Below, piece by piece: positions 18,351 through 55,230 of a stretch of 64,000 nt of DNA. Origin of the DNA: Candidatus Poribacteria bacterium. Its GTDB lineage: Bacteria; Poribacteria; WGA-4E; WGA-3G. The stretch lies in contig VXMD01000049.1 of the NCBI GenBank assembly GCA_009841255.1, forward strand, positions 62,001 to 126,000, given 5' to 3'. The notes under the pieces were generated by a model. That model saw only the letters and a program-made list of their open reading frames with translations, was not told where the DNA came from and did no database searches. Both the position numbers and the translations under genes were made by a program. Position 1 is the first letter of the stretch. The number at the start of each line of letters is the position of its first letter.

Positions 18351-18377
18351 ACCGAACCGCAAGGAATAATTAAAATG
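18351..18377 (+). promoter_or_regulatory. Repeated leader element with Shine-Dalgarno and start codon
   Basis: ACCGAACCGCAAGGAATAAT followed by TAAAATG. The AAGGA is the ribosome site and the ATG starts the RraA-like gene. Near-identical stretches precede murF, ddl, ftsW and the selenoprotein candidate. Confidence 0.65.
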
Positions 18378-25370: not shown

Positions 25371-25747
25371 GGCTTGAGTTGAGTAGATGGTCGCGTCTCG
25401 AACGAAATCTTACCATCGGGATGAGGAAAGTCCGGACTCCACAGGGCAGGATGCTGGGTAACACCCAGGAGCGGCGACGCTATGGAAAGTGCAACAGAGA
25501 GTAGACTACAACGCCTACTTTTATTTAATAAGTTGGGCGTTGTACAGGTGAAACGGTGCGGTAAAAGCGCACCAGTCCATAAGGTGACTTATGGAGCTTG
25601 GTAAACCCCATCTGGAGCAAGGTAAATGGGGGATATATAGAGGCGTGCCCGCCTTGTCCCCAGGTAACCGCTTGAGGTGGATGGTAACATCCATCCCAGA
25701 TGAATGACCATCACATACAGAATCCGGCTTATTCTCAACTCAAGTCT
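25371..25747 (+). ncRNA. rnpB: RNase P RNA, type A
   Basis: The catalytic RNA that trims tRNA 5' ends. The conserved core is present: GAGGAAAGTCCGGACTCC with the following ACAGGGCAGG near 25423-25452, GGTAAACCCCAT near 25601, and ACAGAATCCGGCTTA near 25717-25731, which pairs with the first block in helix P4. Helix P1 is a perfect pairing of CTTGAGTTGAG (25373-25383) with CTCAACTCAAG (25734-25744), which fixes both ends to within a few bases. Size of about 375 bases is normal. Confidence 0.95.
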
Positions 25748-53764: not shown

Positions 53765-54556
53765 CTACGTATCGCTATCAGGTATCTCTGGCCAATTATG
53801 CTCCGGTGAATATTCTAAGTCCTTTGCTGCCTGTTTCCACGCGAAACGGGAATCCGCACGACCAGCGACAGCATTATAAGAACCATACCGGACTGTTTCT
53901 GTTTCGATCGCACGGGCAACACATTGCGCAACATCCCTCGGATCCACATAAACGAACCAAGGATCTGTCACAACGTCAGGGGCTGTCGGACCGGGATTCT
54001 GGCCGTCTCCATCTATAACACCCGGGCGGACATGGATCACGTTCAATCCATGCGCTTGATGATACGCCGCACCGATCTGCTCACCGAGATACTTTGCCAA
54101 TGCATAGTAAAGATCCCCCGTACCGAACTGGAAATCATCGTCTACCTTGTAAGGCAATTCGGCACTTGGAGCAGGAGGACACGCCGAAATACTTGAGATG
54201 TTCACCAACTTCTGAACACCCTGCCTTACGCACGCTTCCGCGACGTTCCATGTGCCTTTTACCATAACATCCGCAAACAGCGAGGCTGGTTTATCAGATC
54301 GTCCCCGCACCAAAGCGACAAGATGAACGACAGCATCTTGATCTGCACACGCCGCCTCGATTTCGGCGGCATCCGTCACATCTGCCTTAATAAAAGTCGT
54401 GCCTGCAATAGCGCGATCCAGCTCAACAATATCCGTTAGCGTCAGTTCATACTCGCCACGCAACCGATCAATGATAAATTGCGCCAGATACCCATTCGCA
54501 CCGGTAATCAAAATTTTTTTAATTTTCCTTGCGGTTTGGTCAGGTGAATTCAGCAT
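53765..54556 (-). CDS. NAD-dependent epimerase/dehydratase (extended SDR)
   Basis: A 263-residue short-chain dehydrogenase-like enzyme. The dinucleotide motif is I-T-G-A-N-G-Y-L-A-Q-F and the active-site pair is Y-x3-K in DLYYALAKYLGEQ, with S-S-I-S upstream. It should act on a nucleotide sugar or a related ketone. The ATG at 54556 has GAGG about 14 bases upstream. Inside the first 14 codons lies a copy of the repeated leader element in which the ATG position reads ATT, so translation may start there instead (residue 15, I-L-I-T-G). Confidence 0.82.
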   Translation of the reverse strand: MLNSPDQTARKIKKILITGANGYLAQFIIDRLRGEYELTLTDIVELDRAIAGTTFIKADVTDAAEIEAACADQDAVVHLVALVRGRSDKPASLFADVMVKGTWNVAEACVRQGVQKLVNISSISACPPAPSAELPYKVDDDFQFGTGDLYYALAKYLGEQIGAAYHQAHGLNVIHVRPGVIDGDGQNPGPTAPDVVTDPWFVYVDPRDVAQCVARAIETETVRYGSYNAVAGRADSRFAWKQAAKDLEYSPEHNWPEIPDSDT

Positions 54557-54577: not shown

Positions 54578-54692
54578 CCGCCTGCGTGTTTTGCTTGGGG
54601 TCTTTGCTTGGGGTCTTTGCTTGGGGTCTTTGCTTGGGTGTTTCTGCGTGTTTCTGCGTATTTCTGCGTATTACTGCGTATTGTTGCAGGCT
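54578..54692. repeat. Long GCCTGC-ended repeat with tandem TTGCTTGGGGTCT units
   Basis: Starts CCGCCTGCG and ends TTGTTGCAGGCT. Inside are three copies of TTGCTTGGGGTCT followed by TTGCTTGGGTG, and four TTTCTGCGTA-type units. It is the longest copy in the window and shows unit expansion. Confidence 0.75.
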
Positions 54693-54723
54693 ACAATCAC
54701 GAAAAAACACGCCGCTACGCGCT

Positions 54724-55068
54724 TTAGCGTACAGGCGGCACCACTTGCTCATAGAGCGCGTTGTTAAATCCGACAAAGAAACTACCTCCACTTCGCAGTG
54801 TAGGCGCACGCAGACTACCGCTCCGTCCCATCACCACTTTTAGGATTGCTTCCTGTGTGTCTTCGGTCGGCACAAAGGTTTCCACGCGCCTCCCTTTCGC
54901 AACAACGATTCGCTCGGCACTCCCCATTAACTCCCATACCGCTGTTGCATCCATTCGCTCTTTTCGGGCATCCGTCCGACGCTCTGGCTGTAATTCGTGT
55001 TCGTCAAGAAACTCTTGAACTTTTTTACAGGAGTTTCAGCTATTCCGAAAATAAATCCAATCTATCAT
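54724..55068 (-). CDS. ArsC-like thioredoxin-fold protein, probable selenoprotein (in-frame TGA at codon 11)
   Basis: From the ATG at 55068 the frame reads M-I-D-W-I-Y-F-R-N-S, then TGA (55038-55036), then N-S-C-K-K-V-Q-E-F-L-D and on to a TAA at 54724: 114 residues if the TGA is read. The start is fixed by a repeated leader element with AAGGA. Downstream the protein matches ArsC-like proteins: ERIVVAKGRRVETF, then VVMGRSGSLRAPTLRSG and F-V-G-F-N. In relatives the N-terminal motif is C-x-x-C-K-K, so TGA sits exactly on the first cysteine, giving U-N-S-C. A small hairpin follows the TGA. I read this as selenocysteine; the alternative is a pseudogene, but the rest of the frame is open and conserved. 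Genes ending in TGA elsewhere in the window rule out general TGA reassignment. No sel genes are in the window. Confidence 0.8.
54999..55020 (-). promoter_or_regulatory. Candidate bacterial SECIS hairpin
   Basis: On the minus strand, CAAG-AGTTT-CTTG forms a four-base stem extended by an outer GTTC/GAAC pairing. The loop begins 22 bases after the TGA and has G as its second base, both within the usual limits for bacterial SECIS. The fold is short and AU-rich, so it is only a candidate. Confidence 0.4.
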
Positions 55069-55096
55069 TTTTTAATTATTCCTTGCGGTTCGGTGA
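55066..55096 (-). promoter_or_regulatory. Repeated leader element before the selenoprotein candidate
   Basis: Minus strand: CACCGAACCGCAAGGAATAA followed by TTAAAAAATG. Nearly the same as the copy at 18351, in front of the RraA-like gene, and it sets the start of the ArsC-like frame upstream of the TGA. Confidence 0.65.
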
Positions 55097-55130
55097 GGGC
55101 ATTGGGTAGGTAGTGTTCCTTCCCGTAAAC

Positions 55131-55226
55131 CCGCCTGCGTGTTTTTGCGAACGCTGAAATCCAATGCGAAGAGAGTCTTTGCTTGGGGTGTTTTTGCTTG
55201 GGTATTTCTGCGTATTGTTGCAGGCT
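55131..55226. repeat. Long GCCTGC-ended repeat
   Basis: Begins CCGCCTGCG and ends TTGTTGCAGGCT, with GCTTGGGGTG and GCTTGGGTATTTCTGCGTA inside, plus a unique 35-base stretch not found in the copy at 54578. Confidence 0.65.
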
Positions 55227-55230
55227 ACAA

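Follow-up and report, generated by a model that had tools for sequence, protein, structure and literature searches.

A very probable U-x-x-C selenoprotein of the ArsC/Spx superfamily in Candidatus Poribacteria

A reading frame of 114 codons on the minus strand of the window (the whole 64-kb stretch of DNA that was analyzed, from a sponge-associated Candidatus Poribacteria bacterium) carries a TGA at codon 11. Does this codon end translation, or is it read as an amino acid, and as which one? It appears from comparative sequence evidence that the gene is almost certainly a genuine selenoprotein gene whose UGA is read as selenocysteine (Sec). The parts of the locus are as follows.

54724..55068, minus strand: predicted selenoprotein gene of 114 codons in which UGA encodes Sec (U11); predicted product with an ArsC/Spx-like thioredoxin fold
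55036..55038, minus strand: in-frame TGA, predicted Sec codon 11 and first position of U-N-S-C; the codon is TGA throughout the Poribacteria copies and TGC in one homologue from a Planctomycete
55027..55029, minus strand: TGT codon of Cys14, which presumably acts as the resolving Cys of U-x-x-C; invariant in the cross-relative alignment, Ser in one Chloroflexi homologue (L131)
54999..55020, minus strand: putative SECIS hairpin region GTTCAAGAGTTTCTTGACGAAC, supported by covariation and by the lack of synonymous change in codons +7 to +11
55017-55013 with 55009-55005, minus strand: core stem of the putative SECIS, with the apical loop GTT at 55012-55010
54799..54828, minus strand: GRSGSLRAPT motif, residues 81-90, a family signature that corresponds to the LRRP stretch of Spx
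55080..55084, minus strand: AAGGA ribosome-binding site inside the leader repeat ACCGCAAGGAAAATTAAAAA (55070-55089)
54724..54954, minus strand: truncated 76-aa ORF of the ordinary ORF list, without the active site

The reading frame and the conservation of its TGA

Read from 55068 to 54724, the frame begins with ATG, has its single TGA at codon 11, ends with TAA and is otherwise open, just as a preliminary description of this DNA had proposed. The predicted product has 114 residues (MIDWIYFRNSUNSCKKVQEFLDEHELQPERRTDARKERMDATAVWELMGSAERIVVAKGRRVETFVPTEDTQEAILKVVMGRSGSLRAPTLRSGGSFFVGFNNALYEQVVPPVR), and its beginning, M-I-D-W-I-Y-F-R-N-S-U-N-S-C-K-K, contains the U-N-S-C-K-K motif in the form described there. 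The leader-borne AAGGA site of that description was also found, 11 nt 5' of the ATG (55084-55080) and within ACCGCAAGGAAAATTAAAAA. The plain ORF list gives the 76-aa ORF with its start at 54954 as the sole product of the locus, which bears out the expectation that a plain gene caller would lose the active site; all points of the preliminary description that could be checked on the frame proved correct. In other words, ordinary annotation begins this gene downstream of its active site. Judged by eye, no other open frame with one TGA in the 64-kb window was comparable to it.

The short ORF is what a standard ORF caller yields, and it would be the only product if the TGA were a true stop; the longer frame would then be a pseudogene or the result of a sequencing error. 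This reading is very improbable. Among 60 close relatives surveyed, 48 bear the gene, and all 48 have exactly one TGA within it; when these copies were read base by base, the TGA was always at the same U-x-x-C position. Phylum-wide, the gene was found in 71 of 85 Poribacteria genomes, and exactly one TGA was present in 71/71, which are independent assemblies. Further evidence against a stop comes from selection. In 36 same-genus genes, pN/pS was 0.17 in the segment preceding the TGA and 0.18 between the TGA and the internal Met; for the remainder of the gene it was 0.20. Purifying selection thus acts on both sides of the TGA, and because the three values are alike, the protein appears to be constrained as one unit across it. 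Moreover, the invariant residues W4, R8 and C14 lie upstream of the start of the short ORF.

The related loci in named genomes are mostly from 'Candidatus Poribacteria' MAGs. Further homologues occur in Desulfobacterota, Anaerolineales and other Chloroflexi, Calditrichota and Planctomycetes, and most homologues in other phyla likewise have exactly one TGA inside the gene. The scan of named genomes used two patterns. One of them, GRSG[NS]LRAPT, excludes the Sec site, so forms with Cys that carry this motif were detectable. Across phyla, the motif-mapped loci had TGA in 78 of 79 cases and TGC in one, a Planctomycetaceae genome. This genome is without a selB over the family cut-off, and its tRNA-Sec is marginal (49.7 bits vs 61-75 for clear ones). 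The check by homologue alignment that the preliminary description had suggested gave the same picture: among the homologues read, the site is occupied by Sec or, once, by Cys, and by no other residue. No Cys form of the gene was found among the 71 gene-bearing Poribacteria genomes. That Sec is so strictly retained there suggests that Cys is no equal substitute, and the Poribacteria-wide fixation of the Sec gene is the mildly new part of the finding. A homologue in a Chloroflexi MAG (L131, 2796-3122) has U-K-T-S, with the Sec kept and the resolving Cys changed to Ser; the second Cys can therefore be lost while Sec stays.

A conserved hairpin behind the UGA

Is the UGA followed by a hairpin that could serve as a SECIS? 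The hairpin that is supported by evolution spans 55017-55005. It has a stem of 5-6 bp (CAAGA/UCUUG) and a GUU loop (55012-55010). The hairpin region starts about 15 nt and its loop 23 nt 3' of the UGA. Over codons +7 to +11, counted from the TGA, the 48 genes have a synonymous codon identity of 1.00 (0.18-0.57 expected), and pS is 0.26 in the first 12 codons vs 0.55-0.58 beyond. The stem extends past a bulged A by GUG/CAC in most same-genus genes and by GCG/CGC in other genera, which is a compensatory change. In 25 diverse sequences, 96.8% of the core cells are paired and both sides have changed in three of the five core pairs; the covariation score of the core hairpin was matched by none of 500 shuffles. 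In 69 of 74 distinct sequences, G is the first base of the apical loop (GTT, GGT or GGC). Judged from synonymous constraint and compensatory changes, the conserved hairpin seems to behave as a bacterial SECIS should.

A published bSECIS model places the loop 16-37 nt after the UGA, with a G in the first two loop positions, and sets -7.5 kcal/mol as the upper limit of the minimum free energy; not all bSECIS elements conform to it (PMC13188914). The distance and the loop-initial G of the window's hairpin lie within it. The window's own core hairpin alone, at -4.2 kcal/mol, does not reach the energy value of the model, and the hairpins of some relatives have -7.6 to -11.3 kcal/mol. A 48-nt stretch folds at -8.1 kcal/mol with a pairing different from that of the conserved hairpin. 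The preliminary description had located a hairpin with a G in its loop in the range 55036-54990. The conserved, covarying hairpin lies inside this range; the minimum-energy fold of the single sequence there is another pairing, which is poorly conserved. This strongest local fold (GAAACUC/GAGUUUC), which begins within the UGA, was rejected as the SECIS: 81 of 500 shuffles reached covariation as high, and the fold is broken in many relatives.

Selenocysteine machinery of the genome

The sel genes for which the preliminary description had advised a search are all present in the window's genome. The tRNA-Sec (78.1 bits, anticodon UCA) adjoins a complete selB of 646 aa, and selA and selD were detected with 595.8 and 361 bits, respectively. 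The SelD of this genome (L043, 1399-2442) itself has an in-frame TGA, within VKCAGUASKL, and is a second selenoprotein of the genome, independent of the one at 54724-55068. TGA is otherwise an ordinary stop, as it terminates 11 of 43 long open frames in the window.

These observations bear on a further reading of the codon. UGA-to-Trp recoding exists in other bacteria. That the UGA is read here as Trp or another non-Sec amino acid, by a changed code or by Sec-free programmed readthrough, is even less credible than a true stop, given the use of TGA as a stop, the Cys at this site in the sole sense-codon homologue and in the CxxC of Spx relatives, the identity of the UGA-reading tRNA as tRNA-Sec, and the TGA at the active-site position of SelD. 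Pseudogene, Trp code change and short ORF were each rejected on TGA conservation, pN/pS and the stop usage of TGA.

Two selB copies are present in the window's genome (contig C50, L063, 3466-5406 and 7325-8701), one of which is complete. The second copy shares the first part and then has a different C-terminus, and a duplicated signal-peptidase-like gene lies beside each copy. The pair may have arisen by recent duplication or may be an artefact of assembly. In four Poribacteria drafts that carry the TGA gene (G025, G030, G033 and G034), no tRNA-Sec scored over the cut-off, and neither tRNA-Sec nor selB over the cut-off was found in an Anaerolineales draft with the TGA gene (G088). The missing tRNA-Sec in these drafts is probably due to MAG incompleteness.

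Family, fold and likely function

The protein belongs to a family that is already on record. Its match to NCBIfam NF041106, 'ArsC family (seleno)protein', scores 123.3 bits vs a cut-off of 85 and covers positions 1-107 of the 107 in the model; the same model matches 27/27 members of a cross-phylum alignment. The family with UxxC is listed in the table of a 2026 review as 'Arsenate reductase-like protein, UxxC' (PMC13188914), and under the same name, within COG1393, in a 2022 review (PMC9312934). The window's protein agrees with this family (ArsC_rel_Se_1) in the full-length match over the cut-off, in the Sec of U-x-x-C and in length. Nothing in its sequence sets it apart from the family; Poribacteria are not named in PMC13188914.

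ArsC-like selenoproteins had indeed been described before, as the preliminary description stated, both as NF041106 and in a report of 2006 (PMC1794560). The latter covers ArsC-like and distant ArsC selenoproteins of Deltaproteobacteria, a group in which NF041106 homologues occur too; the likeness of these genes to the window's protein is at the ArsC-like level, not one of proven NF041106 members. The ArsC 1 selenoproteins of the Global Ocean Sampling likewise belong to the ArsC superfamily and have Sec at the first position, but their motif is UxxS and they match Pfam ArsC proper (PMC2398784). Spx of Bacillus and other ArsC/Spx-fold proteins share with the window's protein the thioredoxin fold, a CxxC-type motif near the N-terminus and a G-LR-P stretch. 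They differ from it in having Cys instead of Sec, and the identity to them is low (15-24%). The literature search on Poribacteria selenoproteins yielded no paper, and selenocysteine is mentioned together with Poribacteria in passing only. SelA and SelB co-occur in most sponge symbiont bins and are missing from most related reference genomes (PMC5649159); the gene described here provides a concrete Sec-dependent protein for sponge symbionts.

What might the protein do? An AlphaFold2 model built with the family alignment has a pLDDT of 91.7 and a pTM of 0.84; it replaced a poor single-sequence fold model (pLDDT 64), which was dropped. The solved folds nearest to it are Spx, then ArsC-related proteins and glutaredoxins. 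W4, R8, U11, C14, G59 and the GR-G-LRAPT stretch are invariant (the alignment displays U as C). Matches to glutaredoxin models are weak and under their cut-offs. The motif and the modeled fold point to a small selenol/thiol oxidoreductase with a U-x-x-C redox pair, which we consider the probable function. Ribosomes would read the UGA at 55036-55038 as selenocysteine via tRNA-Sec, SelB and the SECIS hairpin; the product, 114 residues long and with a thioredoxin fold, belongs to the ArsC/Spx superfamily. The Sec11 selenolate would attack an oxidized substrate, and Cys14 would resolve the resulting intermediate by forming an internal Se-S bond. The protein would then be recycled by a cellular thiol system and could thus act as a small reductase or redox carrier.

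Could the substrate be arsenate? The ArsC-family label of NF041106 suggests an ArsC-like arsenate reductase, as does a weak match to Pfam ArsC that is best in distant members. For the window's protein, this match (PF03960) has 13.9 bits and remains under the gathering cut-off of 24. The structures of proven-type arsenate reductases are far down the list headed by Spx, and the gene neighbors look by sequence like a Gfo/Idh-type oxidoreductase and an epimerase, not ars genes. Arsenate as the natural substrate is possible but less likely, and an arsenate reductase is an unlikely identity for the protein. The term 'ArsC-like' of the preliminary description fits as a label for the family, but among solved structures the closest relatives are of the Spx type. 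The oxidoreductase- and epimerase-like flanks are kept only within the Poribacteria family. Neighbors differ in other families and phyla, and the comparison of neighborhoods across these groups gave no functional clue.

By analogy with Spx, the protein might instead be a redox sensor that binds RNA polymerase, with Sec replacing the first Cys of the Spx switch. Spx gives the best sequence and fold matches (E 2e-6; 8e-5), and there is a weak match to the Spx/MgsR model TIGR01617. This match, with 20.4 bits, is far under the cut-off of 75.05, and the TM-scores are no more than 0.52-0.58, which makes such a sensor doubtful compared with the small oxidoreductase favored above. A wider scenario, in which Poribacteria keep Sec across their main order, the protein helps to justify the upkeep of the Sec machinery in sponge symbionts, and it may be a redox sensor of the Spx kind and no enzyme, is likewise improbable as a whole.

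The leader-like repeat ACCGCAAGGAAAATTAAAAA, 20 bases long, occurs in the window at 18356, 34352, 36051 and 40064 on the plus strand and at 54516 and 55070 on the minus strand, that is, in six copies at up to 3 mismatches vs 0.01 expected. The copies hold AAGGA; the one at 55070 ends just before the selenoprotein start codon, and the one at 54516 lies where the epimerase-like ORF begins. The selenoprotein gene of relatives is preceded by this leader or by a plain GGAGG-type site, a pattern that might be expected of a dispersed element supplying a ribosome-binding site. Repeated intergenic tracts, e.g., GTAGCCTGCAACAATACGCAG and CCAAGCAAAGACC, lie to either side of the gene (54580-54700 and 55120-55230 of the window). 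A class A bacterial RNase P RNA (304 bits) lies at 25375-25746 on the plus strand of the window.
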